A stretch of DNA of 64,000 nt, from positions 2,585,501 to 2,649,500 of the forward strand of contig NZ_JADALJ010000001.1 of assembly GCF_014876185.1 (NCBI RefSeq). Direction: 5' to 3'. Positions 1-9,656 of the stretch are shown here, in pieces. The DNA comes from Rufibacter sp. LB8 (GTDB taxonomy: Bacteria; Bacteroidota; Bacteroidia; Cytophagales; Hymenobacteraceae). The notes under the pieces were generated by a model, which saw only the letters and a program-made list of their open reading frames with translations, had not been told where the DNA came from and searched no databases. Position numbers and translations under genes: made by a program. Position 1 is the first letter of the stretch; every line of letters starts with the position of its first letter.

Positions 1-1209
1 GACCAGATGAAAGAGTTAAACGACAGGACGGTTCACGGCTGGCTTAACCACCTATGGAGCTATTCAACTTACATGTCAGTAGATGGAAGGAATGGCAAGG
101 AATCTATAAAGAAGGTAACTATTGATAAGAACAAACTTTTCGTTCTTATTGAGAACGATGCATTCGCTCCCATTTACGACCCTATAGACGAGTACTTCCA
201 AAAAGTCGAACCTCTGGCAGAGGGCATAACTGAGACAAAAGAGATAGACAAGTTCATCCGCTGCTTCACCTGCGACAACGCCCCAGACGTAGTGGAAAAG
301 TATTTTAAGTATTGGCTCGAAGGGGTTTTCATTAACTACTACTCAGATACTAAGGTACGTGAAGGAATTTTGATACTTCAATCAGCACAGGGAGTTGGTA
401 AGACAACCGCCATAGAGCAATACTTGTTGAATCCGTTTAGAAGCTACGTTGTGAAAAGCTTTGACTGGAACACGTCAAACAAAGATGAGATGATAAAGCT
501 GGCCACGTCCTTAATCATCTTCGATGATGAACTATCTGCCACCAGAAAATCAGAAGTCAATGAATTAAAGAAGATAACCAATCTTAAGCATATCAACAAT
601 ATTAGACCAGCTTACGGACGCACATCAGAAAACTATATCAGAAAGGCTTCGTTTATCGGAGCCACCAATAACATGAATATCGTCAACGATGAATCTGGGT
701 CAAGAAGGTTTTTGATATTAGGAGTTACGGGTATCGACTTGGAAGCCATTAAGGAAATCAACTATGACCTTTTATGGAGCGAGGCATACAATTACTTCCA
801 CAGACAGGGCAACACAGTATATGTTGATTTCGATACCATCAACGAAAACAACCAGAATTTCAGGTATGTTACTGCTGACGAAGAGTATTTGCAGCGCCAC
901 TTTGATTTCACCAAGCCTGGAAATGTATATATGAGTACCACAATGGTATTAGATTACTTAAAGGAAAGGGAGCCTAACCTTCATACAAATGTTGGTACGT
1001 TAGGAAAAGCATTAACTGCTTTGGGTGCGATTATTAAAAGTGACCGCTATCATGGCCCAAAATCACCACCAACAAAGCGTTATCACCTTCACAAAAAAGA
1101 AGACAGTGATTTATTCATGCAACCATTGGGGGTAATCTTGCGAGAAAGCAATGAAGAAGAGCTTAGTGTAGAAGATATGTTTTTCGGCAGAAAAGATGCC
1201 ACAGCTTAA
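1..1209 (+). CDS. VapE-family P-loop ATPase of an integrated element, 5' end outside window
   Basis: The reading frame is open to the window edge; the first ATG is at 7 but the protein probably starts upstream. Counted from that ATG, a Walker A motif GVGKTT lies at residues 129-134, a Walker B-like IIFDDE around 171-176, then RPAYGR, a sensor-like FIGATNN and SGSRRF. This order is that of the virulence-associated E (VapE) domain, a helicase-like ATPase that usually follows a primase domain in phages, satellites and mobilisable islands. The primase half would lie outside the window. The gene is AT-rich compared with the chromosome to the right, and it converges on the next gene across a bidirectional terminator. 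A role in replication of the element is inferred from the family. Confidence 0.8.
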   Translation, partial: DQMKELNDRTVHGWLNHLWSYSTYMSVDGRNGKESIKKVTIDKNKLFVLIENDAFAPIYDPIDEYFQKVEPLAEGITETKEIDKFIRCFTCDNAPDVVEKYFKYWLEGVFINYYSDTKVREGILILQSAQGVGKTTAIEQYLLNPFRSYVVKSFDWNTSNKDEMIKLATSLIIFDDELSATRKSEVNELKKITNLKHINNIRPAYGRTSENYIRKASFIGATNNMNIVNDESGSRRFLILGVTGIDLEAIKEINYDLLWSEAYNYFHRQGNTVYVDFDTINENNQNFRYVTADEEYLQRHFDFTKPGNVYMSTTMVLDYLKEREPNLHTNVGTLGKALTALGAIIKSDRYHGPKSPPTKRYHLHKKEDSDLFMQPLGVILRESNEEELSVEDMFFGRKDATA

Positions 1210-1269
1210 AACTAAATCATTATTTGGCATATAATAAGGGAATCATCTGTTCAATGATTTATTGTTGCC

Positions 1270-1308
1270 ACACAAAAAGGGCTGGTGTATGACCAGCCCT
1301 TTTTGTGT
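1270..1308. terminator. Bidirectional terminator between convergent genes
   Basis: A 17-bp perfect inverted repeat with arm ACACAAAAAGGGCTGGT and a 5-nt loop. It has T-runs on both strands and lies between the convergent VapE and 308-aa genes. Confidence 0.85.
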
Positions 1309-1349
1309 TTATGGATACCCTACTCCATTAATAATGGAAAAGGATGTAA

Positions 1350-2276
1350 CTAAACAGTCTTTTGCTCTGCTCTTTTGTATATCTGGGCATAATCCCCAAC
1401 ATTAACGTGCAGAAATGATAAATGCTTCGGAAAATTTGTGTCGTCTCGTTCCAGGTATTGAATCAAAGAGTTGTAGGAATGCCTTAACCATGGCGCAATG
1501 GCTATTCTCTCTATCCTGTTATTGTTACAGAATTGGATAATCTGCTCTATACTTAAATCTTTAACGTAGTGAACATTAGGCATGACAGCTTTCATATTAT
1601 TGAATTCGCCAGGGCTGGTGCGGACGAATAATGCTTCATGGTCTGTGGCACTGAATATGTTGCGTCTTTGGACAGTGACTGTCCTATTGCCCAATTTGAA
1701 GTTAACTGGCGTACCCTCCTTCTTGGTTATCTTCCATACACAAAATTCCTTTCCGTACTTATACAGGTCTGAAAAAATGGTCGGGTCTATGTAACCTTCG
1801 TCTGTTTTTCCTAAAAGAACTGCATCCTGCGGGAGATTGAAATACTTCTTGAATTTACGCTTTCCATGCTCGTCAGGGCAGTTTAAGAAAAAAAACGAAT
1901 CATCCATGATGGTTTTTAGCAAGGAGAATGACCAGTTCGCCATAGGCTGGTAGTCCGCTCCACCTTCATTTACGCCTGGGTTAATCAAAACCCCGTACGT
2001 AAACCTAATATTACACTCATGAAGCAGGGCTACAGCCTCTATGAGCGTCATACCTAACTTAAGTATGTTCTTCTCAGTAGAGAATCTGGTTTTTAAGGCT
2101 TTATCAACTAATACTATGTTGTCCAGGTCACTCAATTCTGTATAACGCTCACGAATTTTCGTACCCGAGCAAAAATAGATTAAGTTCTTTTTATCCTGAC
2201 CAACTAACCTTTTCAATAATAGAGTCTTTAATTCATCTTTTTCAGTTTTAGTTAATCGTCCAGAATTTCTGCGCAT
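1350..2276 (-). CDS. Hypothetical protein of the integrated element (308 aa)
   Basis: I do not recognise the family. The protein is soluble, with no signal peptide or membrane segment. It begins with a basic stretch (MRRNSGRLTKTEKDE), then a hydrophobic strand followed by GTKIRERY and a second strand IVLVDKAL; this could be a Rossmann-like alpha/beta core, but that is speculation. It has many aromatic and Asn residues and is AT-rich like its neighbours. It lies alone between the VapE gene and the integrase, where satellite and island elements often carry cargo genes. No function is assigned. Confidence 0.65.
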   Translation of the reverse strand: MRRNSGRLTKTEKDELKTLLLKRLVGQDKKNLIYFCSGTKIRERYTELSDLDNIVLVDKALKTRFSTEKNILKLGMTLIEAVALLHECNIRFTYGVLINPGVNEGGADYQPMANWSFSLLKTIMDDSFFFLNCPDEHGKRKFKKYFNLPQDAVLLGKTDEGYIDPTIFSDLYKYGKEFCVWKITKKEGTPVNFKLGNRTVTVQRRNIFSATDHEALFVRTSPGEFNNMKAVMPNVHYVKDLSIEQIIQFCNNNRIERIAIAPWLRHSYNSLIQYLERDDTNFPKHLSFLHVNVGDYAQIYKRAEQKTV

Positions 2277-2808
2277 AAAGGATGGGTTTAGTTAAAGATT
2301 TAGCAACTTACAAAAGTCACTTTTCTATTATAAATTTACGAATTTTCTATAAATATTCCAAATATTAATTCGTGTAATTTATCCCTAATATCATCCAAGT
2401 ATCATATACCTATATCCTTTAACTAAAATAAATTATTAAAGGATATAGGTTCAATTACTAATAAAATCAAGCATGAGCCTCCCTTCTGCAACCATTGCTG
2501 TATGCAGTTAGGTAAAGACATGAGTAGGAATTATTCTTAATGGCCTGAATGCCGATAGAAGACCAACTTTTTCTTTAGGTTACTGGACAATTAAATCACT
2601 GTTGAAGTAGTAGAAATACTTCCATAAAAGTATTTTGGAATTAAAGAGCATTGGAATTGCCTAAGATAGACGCTCGGGTATTCACTATAATTATGAGTAA
2701 AGGTGACGGCCCAGGGTATTGAAGTATCTTATAGTTATAACAAAATATCAAGCCACCATGGCTTACCACCAGAATAAATGATTTGCGAAGTGTATTTGAT
2801 TAATGAAA
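2277..2808. other. 532-bp gene-free AT-rich gap of the element
   Basis: No credible ORF. The only clear structure is the inverted repeat at 2408-2450. Such gaps in elements can hold an origin, a transfer site or recombination directionality sites, but nothing here proves one. Confidence 0.5.
2408..2450. repeat. 15-bp perfect inverted repeat
   Basis: Left arm ACCTATATCCTTTAA (2408-2422), a 13-nt spacer, and right arm TTAAAGGATATAGGT (2436-2450). There is no T-run after either arm, so it is not a standard terminator. It lies in the gap between the 308-aa gene and the integrase. Confidence 0.75.
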
Positions 2809-4311
2809 TCAACCTTCAACTACAGACTCTATTTGTTCAAAAACCTCCAAATAGGATTTCTTCACAGAAAATATTTCAGCCATCTCTTTGTTAATTTTTG
2901 ATGTATTATTTTCTTTCAATCCCGATAGATATTTTTCAGTAACCTGCAATCCACCTATGTGACCTAAGGATTTACCAATGTCATATACATCCACTCCATT
3001 CATAAGCATCAAGCTTGCGTATGAATGCCGACTAAGATGCGATTTCAATGTAATTTTCAACCCTGCCTTCTTTTGAAGCAACTTCAGATGCCTATCATAA
3101 ACTATTGACTTATTCTTCATCTTCTTGTATTGTGCTTCTGTAACTTTAGAAAAGTCATTATTTTTAATATTCCTGAAATCTACATCTCGCAAAAAGTCAA
3201 AAATAAATATTTCACCATTCTTTGGCAGAATTGAAAACTGCATGATTTGCTCCTTATAGTTCTCAAATAAATGATTTTGAACACTCTCTACTTCTTTAGC
3301 GAAATCAAGTGAAATCGTCTCATTAACTATGGAATCATAACCACCTTTGACACCTCTACTATTTAACACATCTATTTTATAATTATTTAGTCTCTCTAAT
3401 TCTTTTTCAATAACTTTTATAGTTCGCAGAGACTTAATACTTATCCTTTCAGCAAGTTTTTTAAATTCACAAATTAAAATATTCCATACAATATCATTTA
3501 TATAAACACTCATGAAAGTGCCTGTCTTAAACATTTTATATTCAATGTGATTACCCTTTACCATATTCCAGCGAAGCAACTGCAAGTCAGAAACCCGCAT
3601 GCCCTGCAAGAATAGTTGTGCAAAAAATTTATTTCTGGTATCCCATGTTTGCTCTCCCTTAAGAAGATAAAGTTTAAATATCTTAGAGATTTCATCTTCA
3701 CCCAATGCTACCTTGTTTACTTTGGTATTTTTAAATTCAAAGGAAGTAAACGGGTGACGGAGGTAATCATAGAAGTTTTCACCAATCGCTTTGTCAAGCA
3801 CTTGCCTTGTCAATTTCAGGTAATGATTAGCTGAATTGGTTGACATTTTTAACAAGAAGAATCTATTAAGGTCATAAATGTATTTAGTATCCATATCACT
3901 AAATAAAATATTCACCTGTTTCCTATCCTTAATAAAGGCTTTTAACTTGTTTAAAACAGTTTGATACTTAATGCGGCTTCCATGATTGATTACTCTTGGC
4001 AAATACTCATTTTCGAAATATGACAAGAATGACTCCTTACTTTTAAGAGTTGCCTTAAAACCTTCCTTGTCTGATAGGTTCTCAAAATCTTTAATCCGTG
4101 CGGTTACTTCCTTATTTATTTCTACGTAATCAACCGCATCGGTTTTTCTGACTGTACCAGACTTCTTATTCCACAGCTTAACAGGCAATTTGATTCTCAG
4201 TGAGCAATAAGTAGACTTTGTCTTCACTGTTTTTCTAATAGCGATTGTACCAACGCTATCCGTAGAATATTTTACCCGAAGCACTGCCTTGTAAGAAGTA
4301 GCCATAATCAT
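2809..4311 (-). CDS. Tyrosine site-specific integrase
   Basis: A 500-aa tyrosine recombinase. The N-terminal part resembles the arm-binding and SAM-like domains of Bacteroidota integrases (beta-rich start, then a helical core-binding region around residues 100-200). The catalytic set is visible: Arg in GMRVSDLQLLRW, the His/Arg pair in HLSRHSYASL, LGH, and the nucleophile Tyr in TEKYLSG. The gene starts 150 bp from an intact tRNA-Arg and reads away from it, as expected for an integrase next to its attachment site. A start four codons downstream is also possible (M1 and M3 are both Met). The catalytic site looks complete, so the enzyme may be active. Confidence 0.9.
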   Translation of the reverse strand: MIMATSYKAVLRVKYSTDSVGTIAIRKTVKTKSTYCSLRIKLPVKLWNKKSGTVRKTDAVDYVEINKEVTARIKDFENLSDKEGFKATLKSKESFLSYFENEYLPRVINHGSRIKYQTVLNKLKAFIKDRKQVNILFSDMDTKYIYDLNRFFLLKMSTNSANHYLKLTRQVLDKAIGENFYDYLRHPFTSFEFKNTKVNKVALGEDEISKIFKLYLLKGEQTWDTRNKFFAQLFLQGMRVSDLQLLRWNMVKGNHIEYKMFKTGTFMSVYINDIVWNILICEFKKLAERISIKSLRTIKVIEKELERLNNYKIDVLNSRGVKGGYDSIVNETISLDFAKEVESVQNHLFENYKEQIMQFSILPKNGEIFIFDFLRDVDFRNIKNNDFSKVTEAQYKKMKNKSIVYDRHLKLLQKKAGLKITLKSHLSRHSYASLMLMNGVDVYDIGKSLGHIGGLQVTEKYLSGLKENNTSKINKEMAEIFSVKKSYLEVFEQIESVVEG

Positions 4312-4460
4312 TACCTTTACACTGATGATGATGTAAGTTAGTCAGGAAACAGTGACATTTGTATCTGGTGTAAAATAAAGTGTAAAATATTTTTCACATT
4401 TTAAAGCAAACATAGCAACATCAATATTACATAAAAACCTGATTACCAATCATTTAACAA

Positions 4461-4535
4461 GGCCCCGTAGTTCAACGGATAGAATAGACGTTTCCTAAAC
4501 GTTAGATTCAGGTTCGATTCCTGACGGGGCCACCA
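4461..4535 (+). tRNA. tRNA-Arg (anticodon CCT)
   Basis: Complete cloverleaf. The acceptor stem GGCCCCG pairs with CGGGGCC (4525-4531). The D arm is GTTC/GAAT, the anticodon stem GACGT/ACGTT with loop TTCCTAA (anticodon CCT), and the T arm TCAGG/CCTGA with loop TTCGATT. The discriminator A at 4532 is followed by an encoded CCA. It is the likely integration target of the element on its left. Confidence 0.95.
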
Positions 4536-5724: not shown

Positions 5725-6075
5725 CTAACGAATGATCACTTTCCGGACTTCACTGTAAGTTGGTGTTTCCAGTTTTACGTAATACAAACCTTTCGCCAGT
5801 TTGTTTAGGTCTAAGGTTTTTACGTAGCGTTGGTTAGGGTCTTGGAGCACCTCGCGGTACACAATGTTGCCAATCACGTTCATGATCCGGAGGTCGGCCT
5901 TTTTGCCGTCAAAGCCTTCCAGGGAAATGGTTATGATGCCGCTGGAGGGGTTGGGGAACACAGAAATGGCTTGCTCTTCTGCCTTGGGTTCAGCGGGAAG
6001 TCCCTGGGACTTGACCTGCGCCGAAAGCGTGGTAGTGGCAAGACAAACAAACAGTAAGAGTATAAGGTGTTTCAT
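5725..6075 (-). CDS. Small secreted protein made almost only of a T9SS C-terminal sorting domain
   Basis: A 116-aa protein. A signal peptide (residues 1-19, ending LSAQ) and about 17 linker residues are followed by a typical type A sorting domain: ISVFPNPSSGIITIS, LRIMNVIGNIVYRE, LDLNKLAKGLYYVKLET, and the final Lys/Arg-Val-Ile motif KVIIR. In known T9SS substrates this domain directs outer-membrane export and is cleaved from a larger cargo. Here there is almost no cargo. It has its own terminator and reads as a complete gene, not a fragment. Confidence 0.85.
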   Translation of the reverse strand: MKHLILLLFVCLATTTLSAQVKSQGLPAEPKAEEQAISVFPNPSSGIITISLEGFDGKKADLRIMNVIGNIVYREVLQDPNQRYVKTLDLNKLAKGLYYVKLETPTYSEVRKVIIR

Positions 6076-6251: not shown

Positions 6252-7370
6252 ATGCCGCAAATCGATGTACTGATTATAGGAGGTGGCCTGGCGGGCTTAG
6301 TAAGTGCGTTGCAATTATCACGCCAAGGTGTAGCGGTCACGCTGGTAGAAAAGAAACGCTATCCGTTCCACAAGGTCTGCGGCGAATACATCTCCAATGA
6401 AGTGCTGCCCTATCTGTCACAGCTTGGCGTAAACGCAGAATCCTTGCAGCCCGCGCGCCTCACGCACTTTTTGCTTACCTCGCCGGCCGGCCGGTCTTTG
6501 CAGACGCGGTTGGATCTGGGTGGTTTTGGTGTAAGCCGCTATACGCTGGATTTTCACTTATATGAATTGGCCAAAGCGCGCGGTGTGCAGTTTCTGCAAG
6601 AAGTAAGCGTAACAGACACGCAGTTCCACCAAAGCCATTTTACAGTGACACTTTCCACGGGGCAGCAAATCCAGAGCCGGGTGGTGCTGGGCGCGTACGG
6701 CAAGCGAAGCACCCTGGACCGCAAATTCAAACGGCAATTCTTTGAGCAGCGCTCACCGTACCTGGCCGTGAAATACCATTTGCACACGCACATGCCCAGG
6801 CACATCATTGGGCTGCATAATTTCAAAGACGGCTATGCGGGCATCTCGGCTATTGAAGAAGAAAAGTATTGCTTCTGTTACCTCACCACCCGGCAAAACC
6901 TGAAGACCTACGGCACCATTCCAGAACTGGAGAGACAGGTAGTGCACAAAAACCCAGCCCTGCGTGCCATTTTAGAGAACAGCCAATCTTTGTACGCCCA
7001 GCCCGAGGTGATCAATGAAATTTCTTTCGCGCCCAAGGCCTGCGTGGAAGACCACGTGCTCATGGTAGGCGATGCGGCCGGGCTCATTACGCCGCTCTGC
7101 GGCAACGGCATGGCCATGGCCATTCATGGGGCTAAGTTGGCCTGTGACCAGGTGCAGCTTTTTTTGAACGGCCAACAGACCCGCCAGCAGATGGAAACCA
7201 ATTTCGCGCAGCGGTGGCAACAACAGTTTGGGGCCAGGCTGCGTACCGGCAGATGGGTACAGAAATTGTTTGGGCACCCACTTTTGTCTGAGGCGGCGGT
7301 GGCCGGGCTGCGGCAGGCCCCGTTCATCACCAAGGCCATCATGAAACACACGCACGGCCAACCTTTCTAA
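6252..7370 (+). CDS. FAD-dependent oxidoreductase of the polyketide operon
   Basis: A 372-aa flavoprotein of the geranylgeranyl-reductase/halogenase-like group. The N-terminal dinucleotide-binding site VLIIGGGLAGLVSALQLS is at residues 5-22, followed by the acidic VEKK and the family motif PFHKVCGEYIS (about 38-48). The second FAD motif, VLMVGDAAGLITPLCGNGM, lies around 275-293. There is no signal peptide. It is followed after 95 bp by a type III polyketide synthase and then a methyltransferase, so it probably hydroxylates or oxidises the polyketide product. The trio resembles the srsA-srsB-srsC logic of Streptomyces griseus phenolic lipids (PKS, methyltransferase, flavin hydroxylase). That functional match is an inference. 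Confidence 0.85.
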   Translation: MPQIDVLIIGGGLAGLVSALQLSRQGVAVTLVEKKRYPFHKVCGEYISNEVLPYLSQLGVNAESLQPARLTHFLLTSPAGRSLQTRLDLGGFGVSRYTLDFHLYELAKARGVQFLQEVSVTDTQFHQSHFTVTLSTGQQIQSRVVLGAYGKRSTLDRKFKRQFFEQRSPYLAVKYHLHTHMPRHIIGLHNFKDGYAGISAIEEEKYCFCYLTTRQNLKTYGTIPELERQVVHKNPALRAILENSQSLYAQPEVINEISFAPKACVEDHVLMVGDAAGLITPLCGNGMAMAIHGAKLACDQVQLFLNGQQTRQQMETNFAQRWQQQFGARLRTGRWVQKLFGHPLLSEAAVAGLRQAPFITKAIMKHTHGQPF

Positions 7371-7465
7371 AAAAAGCCATGCCCGGGTCCGGTCAACACC
7401 AGTAACGCACAAAACAAATCAACCGGCCTAAAACATGTTGCCGTTCTTTTGCTTATACTTAAATT

Positions 7466-8578
7466 ATGAAGAGTTACCTCTGCGCCCTCGGCACGGCTAA
7501 TCCACCGCATGTTTTTCCGCAGCAGCAGATTGCTGATTTCATGGCGCAGGCCCTTGAGTTAGAGGAACCAGAAACCAGAAAACTGAAAGCCCTGTACCGG
7601 GCCTCAGGCATTGACCAGCGGCACAGCGTGCTGCCCGACTACGGCCGGCAGAACAGTGACTTTTCCTTCTTCCCCAACACGCCGGGGCTGGAGCCTTTTC
7701 CTACGGTGGGCGCGCGCATGCAAACCTTTCAGGCAGAGGCCTTGCCTTTGTCAGTGGCTGCGGTGCAAGACTGCTTCGCTCAAATTCCCGATTTCAATCC
7801 CAACCATATCACGCATTTGATCACGGTCAGCTGCACGGGCATGTACGCGCCGGGCCTGGACATTGAACTGGTACAGGAATTGGGCCTTTCGCCGCAGGTG
7901 GAGCGCACGTGCGTGTATTTCATGGGCTGTTACGCGGCCTTCAACGCCTTAAAACTAGCCGACACCATTTGCCGGGCCAACGCCCAGGCGTGCGTGTTGG
8001 TGGTCTGCACCGAACTCTGCACCCTGCATTTCCAGAAGAAAACCGAATCTGACCATCTGGTTTCCAATGCCCTCTTCGCCGATGGTGCCGCCGCCGTGTT
8101 GGTCAGCCCAAAACCGCTCTCTGAGGTTTCATTGCAGCTGGAAGGATTTCATTGTGATTTGGCGCCCGCCGGTCAGCGCGAGATGGCCTGGTCTATCCAT
8201 GATTTCGGGTTTGAGATGACTTTGTCCAGCTATGTGCCGGCTTTGATCAAACAGGGCATTGGGCAATTGACGGCCGCGCTGCTGAAGAAACTGGAATTGC
8301 AGTTAGACGAAGTGCACCTGTTCGCCATTCACCCGGGTGGCAAGCGTATTCTGGAAGTGATTGAACAGGCGCTGGGGCTGCAGAAAGAAGACAACCGGTA
8401 TGCCTATGACGTGCTGCGACGGTTCGGGAACATGTCATCGGCCACGGTGTTGTTTGTGCTCCGCGAACTCTGGCGAGACCTGCAGCCGCACCAGCACGGG
8501 CAGCGTGTGCTCAGCTTCGCGTTTGGGCCGGGGCTCACGTTAGAATCCATGCTCTTGCGCGTGCACTATGCTGAATGA
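7466..8578 (+). CDS. Type III polyketide synthase (chalcone/stilbene synthase fold)
   Basis: A 370-aa ketosynthase-like enzyme. The type III catalytic triad is present: Cys155 in FMGCYAAFNA, His289 in AIHPGG and Asn322 in RFGNMSSAT. The C-terminal GPG loop (FAFGPGLTLE) is also kept. These enzymes extend an acyl-CoA starter with malonyl-CoA without an ACP and cyclise it to a resorcinol, pyrone or similar ring. The last 11 bases overlap the methyltransferase start, so translation is probably coupled. Bacterial relatives make alkylresorcinols or alkylpyrones for membranes or quinone-like products; the exact product cannot be read from sequence. Confidence 0.93.
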   Translation: MKSYLCALGTANPPHVFPQQQIADFMAQALELEEPETRKLKALYRASGIDQRHSVLPDYGRQNSDFSFFPNTPGLEPFPTVGARMQTFQAEALPLSVAAVQDCFAQIPDFNPNHITHLITVSCTGMYAPGLDIELVQELGLSPQVERTCVYFMGCYAAFNALKLADTICRANAQACVLVVCTELCTLHFQKKTESDHLVSNALFADGAAAVLVSPKPLSEVSLQLEGFHCDLAPAGQREMAWSIHDFGFEMTLSSYVPALIKQGIGQLTAALLKKLELQLDEVHLFAIHPGGKRILEVIEQALGLQKEDNRYAYDVLRRFGNMSSATVLFVLRELWRDLQPHQHGQRVLSFAFGPGLTLESMLLRVHYAE

Positions 8579-9275
8579 ACGGTCCACGGAACTGGAGTTG
8601 ATGGATGATCTCACGCTCACCGGCGAGGCCCTGCGCCAGAACCTGCGCGAACTGGAATTCATCAATCAGTACCTAGGTGGCCATGACGTGGTGCGCAACG
8701 GGCTGGACAAGATTTATAAAAAAGCGTTTTCGGGCTCTAAACCTGAAACGGCGCTCAAAATAGCCGATCTGGGCAGCGGTGGCGGCGACACCCTGCGCAT
8801 GGTAGCCCAATGGGCGCGCCGCCGAAACATTCCCGTGCAACTGGTGGGCTATGACGCCAACGCGTTCATGGTGGAGTATGGCACCCGGCACAGCCAGCAC
8901 TTTCCGGAGATTTCCTTTCGGCAAGCCGATGTTTATTCTGCGGCATTTGCACAGGAGGAATTTGACATTGTGATCTGCAGTTTGTTTCTGCACCATTTTC
9001 CAGACCAGGCTTTGGTCACGCTTTTCAACCAACTGCACCGCCAAGCTACCACCGCCGTGTTGGTGAATGACCTTCACCGGCACCCGCTGGCTTATTATTC
9101 CATCAAAGCGCTTACCGCCGTCTTCTCCAAGTCTCATCTGGTGAAGCATGATGCTCCGCTCTCGGTGAAAAGGGCGTTTGTGCGGCAAGACTGGCGAAAC
9201 CTGCTAACCAGCGCGGGCGTGGCCACGTATACCCTGCAGTGGCGCTGGGCATTCCGGTGGCAACTTATCTTCTGA
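8568..9275 (+). CDS. Class I SAM-dependent methyltransferase of the polyketide operon
   Basis: A 235-aa protein with the SAM-binding motif I IADLGSGGGD at residues 65-74, an acidic VGYDANAFMVEYG (motif II region) and EFDIVICSLFLHHF (motif IV/V). It overlaps the end of the type III PKS gene by 11 bases and ends with no obvious terminator. Relatives are annotated as UbiE-like or phenol O-methyltransferases. The likely task is O- or C-methylation of the polyketide ring. In the srs pathway the methyltransferase is of a different fold, so only the step, not the family, is shared. Confidence 0.88.
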   Translation: MLNERSTELELMDDLTLTGEALRQNLRELEFINQYLGGHDVVRNGLDKIYKKAFSGSKPETALKIADLGSGGGDTLRMVAQWARRRNIPVQLVGYDANAFMVEYGTRHSQHFPEISFRQADVYSAAFAQEEFDIVICSLFLHHFPDQALVTLFNQLHRQATTAVLVNDLHRHPLAYYSIKALTAVFSKSHLVKHDAPLSVKRAFVRQDWRNLLTSAGVATYTLQWRWAFRWQLIF

Positions 9276-9437
9276 AAAGTGGCCAGGCCGTACCAGAGTT
9301 TCCAGAATTTTTAGCTACCTTAAACTACCCGTATGGTTCGCCTGGCCGGGCCACAGCTCCTTGGTTTTCTTCAACTTCAATTGTTAAAAGAAATTCAACG
9401 GGCACTGCGCGACTATTTTTCACCAACCCCCTATTCC

Positions 9438-9656
9438 ATGGGCCGAAGTTCCAGTAAATCATCTCTCCAGTTCTGGCTCCTGTTGGCAGCCTCCGTTGTC
9501 TTGTCTGCCATGGTCATCAGCCTGTTCCTGAAGGTGGTGAAAGTCATGATTTACCTCTTGCTGGTCCTGGTGCTGGTGCCCATCATTTACCTGGCCCTCA
9601 AAAAAGCCGTGGCCACGTTCAGAAACCCCAACACCAAACTCAAAACCCGGGATTAA
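9438..9656 (+). CDS. Small two-helix membrane protein (72 aa)
   Basis: Starting at MGRSSSKSS, the protein has two hydrophobic stretches (FWLLLAASVVLSAMVISLFL and MIYLLLVLVLVPIIYLALKK) and a basic tail. The frame is open to an earlier ATG at 9333, which would add 35 residues of ordinary composition; the start is therefore uncertain. It follows the methyltransferase on the same strand by about 160 bp. No family is recognised. Confidence 0.5.
   Translation: MGRSSSKSSLQFWLLLAASVVLSAMVISLFLKVVKVMIYLLLVLVLVPIIYLALKKAVATFRNPNTKLKTRD

Follow-up and report, generated by a model that had tools for sequence, protein, structure and literature searches.

Several bacterial operons combine a type III polyketide synthase (PKS) that makes alkylresorcinols with an oxidoreductase and a methyltransferase that hydroxylate and methylate the ring, as for hierridin B (PMC10896814, PMC8086630). 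Both hidABC of picocyanobacteria, the hierridin genes, and a planctomycete operon are compact sets of one type III PKS, one methyltransferase and one oxidoreductase. The planctomycete PKSs make long-chain alkylresorcinols, namely pentadecyl- and heptadecylresorcinols; the methyltransferase adds one methyl group, probably C-linked, and the oxidoreductase was left there without an assigned role (PMC10896814, PMC8086630). One hierridin-like cluster, in Raphidiopsis mediterranea, contains a prenyltransferase and was called unique (PMC8086630). In this study, we analyzed a 64,000-nucleotide stretch of DNA from Rufibacter sp. LB8 (the window), in which three hidABC-like gene types adjoin on one strand. 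We consider it reasonably likely that this trio forms the clustered portion of a pathway in Bacteroidota to a prenylated aromatic polyketide lipid. The trio consists of the following genes:

6252..7370, + strand: flavin adenine dinucleotide (FAD)-dependent oxidoreductase of the flavin-monooxygenase/halogenase/geranylgeranyl-reductase superfamily, a proposed ring hydroxylase, referred to as the flavoprotein (372 amino acids (aa); Pfam FAD_binding_3)
7466..8578, + strand: type III PKS with Cys155-His289-Asn322 (370 aa; Pfam Chal_sti_synt N + C)
8568..9275, + strand: class I S-adenosylmethionine methyltransferase (235 aa; Pfam Methyltransf_25)

The coordinates and Pfam families confirmed the three + strand open reading frames (ORFs) of a preliminary description of this DNA, with the last two overlapping. 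The PKS and methyltransferase genes share 11 base pairs (bp), and 95 bp lie between the flavoprotein stop and the PKS start. The Pfam scores were 72.8 bits for FAD_binding_3 (cut-off 22), 114.7 and 84 bits for Chal_sti_synt_N and _C (cut-off 27 each), and 53.9 bits for Methyltransf_25 (cut-off 27). In the NCBIfam scan, none of the three proteins rose above any model's cut-off; the methyltransferase reached 141 bits with PRK06202, under the cut-off of 243. SrsB, the methyltransferase of the srs phenolic-lipid pathway, is a membrane protein resembling isoprenylcysteine methyltransferases. Unlike SrsB, the trio methyltransferase matched class I methyltransferase Pfam families only, in agreement with its earlier assignment to a family other than that of srs.

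Taken alone, the trio belongs to a known type, and its pairing with a UbiA-family prenyltransferase is the added element. Compared by gene content, not by the HidA-C sequences, it resembles hidABC and the planctomycete operon; it differs in its order, flavoprotein-PKS-methyltransferase, and in the UbiA partner. The srs logic proposed in the preliminary description therefore stands as one parallel, but hidABC and the planctomycete operon are the closest published ones in gene content. srsABC and the mycobacterial and Streptomyces polyketide-quinone operons likewise hold a PKS, a methyltransferase and a hydroxylase or oxidoreductase and lead from an alkylresorcinol to a quinone, which in actinobacteria is an electron carrier; they differ in that PMC9927152 makes no mention of a UbiA. 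At the losA locus of Micromonospora endolithica, a UbiA family prenyltransferase, a methyltransferase, an acyl-CoA dehydrogenase and a type III PKS stand in a row, a likeness to the genes described here, and the products obtained with losA alone activated were unprenylated alkylresorcinols (PMC7587189). No report of a phylum-wide PKS-UbiA pairing in Bacteroidota was found in searches of open-licence PMC papers. In plants, cannabinoids are made by the same scheme, in which a type III PKS supplies the ring and a UbiA-type aromatic prenyltransferase acts on it; the organisms are unrelated, and the likeness is one of superfamilies.

A scan of genome contigs for relatives gave 65 loci. When the neighbors of the PKS were clustered, one family of about 300 aa adjoined the PKS in 27/65 of them, and all four members tested (three relatives and the protein of the window's own genome) were UbiA-family membrane prenyltransferases by Pfam, above the cut-off. 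The PKS and UbiA genes are head to head in Cytophagales and overlapping or co-directional in Chitinophagaceae-like loci. Co-occurrence was examined in 118 genomes across the phylum Bacteroidota and 78 of the order Cytophagales (5 common to both; 191 distinct), and these genome counts are not independent of each other. The order name is taken from named relatives among the scanned loci and from the lineage labels of the PKS tree. Presence was called by bit score (PKS at least 270 bits, UbiA at least 200 bits); in the order set, presence meant an E value of at most 1e-50 for the flavoprotein and of at most 1e-40 for the methyltransferase. Partial matches to UbiA in G170 and to the flavoprotein in G135 were counted as present, and G190 is 7% contaminated. 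We found UbiA in 66/191 genomes, 65 of which also had the PKS. Among the 78 Cytophagales genomes, the PKS was present in 60 and UbiA in 61, with both in 60 and neither in 17; the two agreed in 77/78 (Fisher p 2.9e-16, kinship not corrected). Within five mixed-state families, the absences coincided exactly (1.3e-4 by within-family shuffling, 24 genomes). In the phylum set, UbiA (at least 294 bits) was found in 10/118 genomes, exactly those with a PKS of at least 450 bits, and the flavoprotein and methyltransferase accompanied it in 10/10. Over both sets, the flavoprotein was present in 60/65 and the methyltransferase in 56/65 PKS+UbiA genomes (55 and 51, respectively, of the 60 in the order set). 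UbiA is thus the most constant partner of the PKS, which indicates that the product is probably prenylated. The methylated, hydroxylated product proposed earlier agrees with the tailoring genes but is incomplete, since prenylation had not been considered.

Physical linkage was far less regular. The PKS and UbiA genes lie at most 5 kb apart in 29/65 genomes and are unlinked in 36/65; their co-occurrence is therefore not explained by linkage alone. Among the 54 genomes with all four genes, 18 have them in one cluster and 14 have no two linked. The flavoprotein and methyltransferase genes are both at most 5 kb from the PKS in 23/65 genomes, with UbiA there too in 18 and elsewhere in 5. Five genomes, which all belong to the window's family, show the window's pattern of a joined trio and a distant UbiA. 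These genes co-occur rather than stay clustered. Conservation of the trio across Cytophagales, which the preliminary description had offered as a check, was thus borne out mostly for presence and not for linkage.

Within Hymenobacteraceae, all three genes were found in the window's order at 11 loci (L003-L009, L011-L013, L056), and such a retained arrangement is not a chance juxtaposition. The flavoprotein-PKS spacing at these loci ranges from 12 to 2405 bp, and in L004 and L011 an alpha/beta-hydrolase gene separates the two (Pfam run on L004 only). Because of this variable gap and the inserted gene, the compact operon described earlier is well supported for the overlapping PKS and methyltransferase genes only. 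At L010, the PKS has no adjoining methyltransferase, and the locus stretch extends 624 bp beyond the PKS on its upstream side. The Hymenobacter coccineus PKS (L056:5983-7199) appears as two overlapping ORFs, from a frame break or a sequencing error, with the flavoprotein and methyltransferase whole. Beyond this family, the order was UbiA-PKS-methyltransferase-flavoprotein at L055 and L057-L060 and flavoprotein-UbiA(divergent)-PKS-methyltransferase at L020; many Spirosomataceae and Flectobacillaceae loci had the PKS alone or PKS and UbiA within the stretch fetched. Relatives of the window PKS were also seen in contigs of metagenome-assembled genomes labelled Elusimicrobia (L067, together with a methyltransferase-like stretch) and Gammaproteobacteria (L047).

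In the window's genome, the UbiA partner is distant from the trio and is preceded by a second methyltransferase-like gene:

G000:C1:4507777-4508637: UbiA ortholog, 1.9 Mb from the trio (46% identity, E 1.5e-70)
L073:7147-7953: second methyltransferase-like gene, upstream of UbiA with a 4-bp overlap (268-aa ORF)

The own-genome UbiA scored 88.2 bits with PF01040 (cut-off 34.2) and is the one ortholog of the PKS-linked family among four UbiA-family genes. MenA, haem O synthase and the genome's third UbiA-like gene were ruled out as the partner, being at separate loci (L069-L071) that were named by reading of the ORFs, not by a family test. The NCBIfam MenA model gave four relatives of the UbiA partner at most 36.5 of 277 bits. 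The predicted structure of the L020 UbiA, with a predicted local distance difference test (pLDDT) value of 94, matched archaeal UbiA homologs and digeranylgeranylglyceryl-phosphate (DGGGP) synthase (E 3e-5, template modelling (TM) score ~0.6), and this model places the protein in the superfamily without naming a substrate. UbiA prenyltransferases carry two Asp-rich motifs and prenylate aromatic rings, often carboxylate-bearing ones. In an alignment of 15 rows, N58, D62 and D64 of the first motif were invariant. The 268-aa ORF beside UbiA had no match in the Pfam scan and may be read as a class I methyltransferase by its glycine-rich motif. It adjoins UbiA in 6/6 Hymenobacteraceae genomes and is unlinked in 8 more order-set genomes, each of which has the PKS and UbiA; overall, it was found in 14/60 PKS+UbiA genomes vs 0/18 others (p 0.03). 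Inspection by eye of the neighbors of scattered UbiA and flavoprotein genes revealed no other shared partner.

The Cys-His-Asn triad of the PKS was intact, as noted earlier: Cys155, His289 and Asn322 were invariant in 18/18 aligned sequences, including that of the window, and the enzyme looks active. The closest solved structure was PKS18 (1ted, E 3e-49). All 18 sequences have F, Y or W three residues ahead of the catalytic His, at a position that we take to be that of ArsB Trp281. Cys185, which is PKS18-like and also invariant in 18/18, was dropped as a diagnostic since this residue is widespread among bacterial type III PKSs. Splitting the PKS clades by bit score alone failed, as the UbiA-associated PKSs of the order set reach down to 272 bits and UbiA-less ones of the phylum set up to 431; because of this overlap, a tree was used instead (95 rows; loci with a PKS of <331 residues left out; midpoint root, several long branches). 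It contained a clade of 85 at 99/93, which takes in L047 and L053, two PKSs not settled as UbiA-associated. The two UbiA-less phylum-set PKSs sampled for the tree (L090, L092) fell outside the UbiA-associated clade.

The tailoring genes also occur with another PKS. A different PKS (206-214 bits), with no UbiA, is found together with the flavoprotein (440-474 bits) and the methyltransferase (234-257 bits) in 9/118 genomes of the phylum set. Five such loci (L074-L078) have the order flavoprotein-methyltransferase-PKS; dehydratase-, ketosynthase-, acyl carrier protein (ACP)- and phosphopantetheinyl-transferase-like genes come next in 5/5 (Pfam names from L075 only), and a short-chain dehydrogenase does in 2/5. 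This PKS may come with a small fatty-acid synthase of its own. Two genomes of the Cytophagales set, G143 and G168, have this PKS type and lack the usual PKS and UbiA. Since orthologs of both enzymes occur in UbiA-less PKS operons, the ring is indicated as their substrate, and the flavoprotein and methyltransferase probably tailor it. As the common tailoring enzymes fit either PKS type, a prenyltransferase and an own acyl-chain supply may be two ways to give one kind of ring a lipid tail.

The type of reaction catalyzed by the flavoprotein is less evident. Its best NCBIfam scores, both below cut-off, were with QhpG (114/240 bits) and GG-red-SF (113.5/158.8 bits). Its predicted structure (pLDDT 88.5) had as nearest solved folds phenol and pyrrole halogenases, 3-hydroxybenzoate 6-hydroxylase, PqsL and UbiI/UbiH at 16-20% identity; it is about equally close to halogenases and hydroxylases, and a geranylgeranyl-reductase-like fold ranked lower, at 23. 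A second flavoprotein copy, not linked to the PKS, was seen in G072 (C23:509286-510413). The flavoprotein could reduce double bonds of the prenyl chain, like geranylgeranyl reductases, or halogenate the ring instead of hydroxylating it. The GG-red-SF score, close to the best one, and the halogenases at the top of the fold matches point that way, but all these scores are under curated cut-offs. The flavoprotein ortholog in UbiA-less PKS operons (41-47% identity), where a prenyl chain is not expected, argues for action on the ring rather than on the chain. We regard reduction or halogenation as quite improbable.

Combining the reported chemistry of related operons with ring prenylation by UbiA enzymes, we infer the substrates, step order, ring type, redox state, membrane location and physiological role of the proposed pathway as follows. 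The PKS would condense malonyl-CoA onto a starter, likely a fatty acyl group, and cyclise the chain to a resorcinol- or resorcylic-type ring. The dedicated UbiA-family prenyltransferase would attach an isoprenoid chain, the flavoprotein would hydroxylate the ring and the methyltransferase would methylate it. The end product would be a hydroquinone- or quinone-like membrane lipid. That the PKS, the flavoprotein and the methyltransferase serve one pathway, as suggested in the preliminary description, is supported as likely.

Several observations weigh against such a prenylated product. The second Asp-rich motif of the UbiA partner is only partly kept, with D189 retained and Asp194 replaced in 5/15 rows. 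The sole mismatch in the order set, G183, has UbiA without the PKS, flavoprotein or methyltransferase, and 5/60 and 9/60 PKS+UbiA genomes of that set lack the flavoprotein and the methyltransferase, respectively. In the phylum set, 25/35 genomes with a PKS of at least 270 bits have no UbiA partner (PKS 316-431 bits); 8 of these 25 contain a remotely related UbiA (116-152 bits). The product might be a plain phenolic lipid of the hid, srs or pkq type, that is, a methylated, hydroxylated alkylresorcinol or alkylquinone, with UbiA belonging to another pathway. The gene content is the same as in hidABC and the planctomycete operon, UbiA-less trios do exist in Bacteroidota, and 1.9 Mb separate UbiA from the trio in the window's genome. 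However, the PKS agrees with UbiA across Cytophagales better than the trio's own members agree with each other, and the two are linked in 29/65 genomes. A plain phenolic lipid is therefore unlikely in our view, though it deserves to be taken seriously. The co-occurrence could also reflect shared ancestry only, with four genes old in Cytophagales and lost at random. Most sampled Cytophagales genomes do have all four, and kinship keeps the genomes from being independent cases; against this, absences coincide in the five mixed-state families with 1 discordant genome in 78, and the PKS-UbiA pair is clustered in differing orientations. Random loss is very improbable.

The trio is flanked in the window by the following genes:

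7-1209, + strand: VapE-like primase gene
2809-4311, - strand: tyrosine integrase gene
4461-4535: tRNA-Arg(CCT)
5725..6075, - strand: divergent gene for a secreted protein, probably not part of the pathway (116 aa; Por_Secre_tail 56.9 bits)

The first three mark an integrated element (7-4535) that ends at the tRNA and adjoins the trio; different genes occupy this place in sister Rufibacter loci. The secreted protein consists of a signal peptide, recognized by eye, and a type IX secretion system (T9SS) sorting tail and has hardly any cargo; its homolog stands beside the flavoprotein gene in 11/11 Hymenobacteraceae loci holding the latter. Downstream of the trio, a small membrane-type ORF (9333-9656) without a Pfam match has a homolog in 9/10 Rufibacter/Sabulibacter loci (L003-L012).

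The pathway to a prenylated polyketide lipid, if right, would represent an undescribed class of such lipids, possibly a second quinone, across a whole order of common bacteria. We put forward, as a doubtful extension, that menaquinone is not the only redox-active membrane lipid of most Cytophagales. The second one would be a methylated and prenylated (hydro)quinone of polyketide origin, in which a type III PKS takes the place of chorismate as the source of the ring and a dedicated UbiA supplies the tail. If true, this would amount to a polyketide version of ubiquinone assembly, with a ring, a UbiA, a hydroxylase and a methyltransferase, whose genes frequently lie apart and are therefore difficult to detect by cluster-based genome mining. 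These results suggest that co-occurrence can recover a pathway where gene-cluster mining sees a lone PKS.

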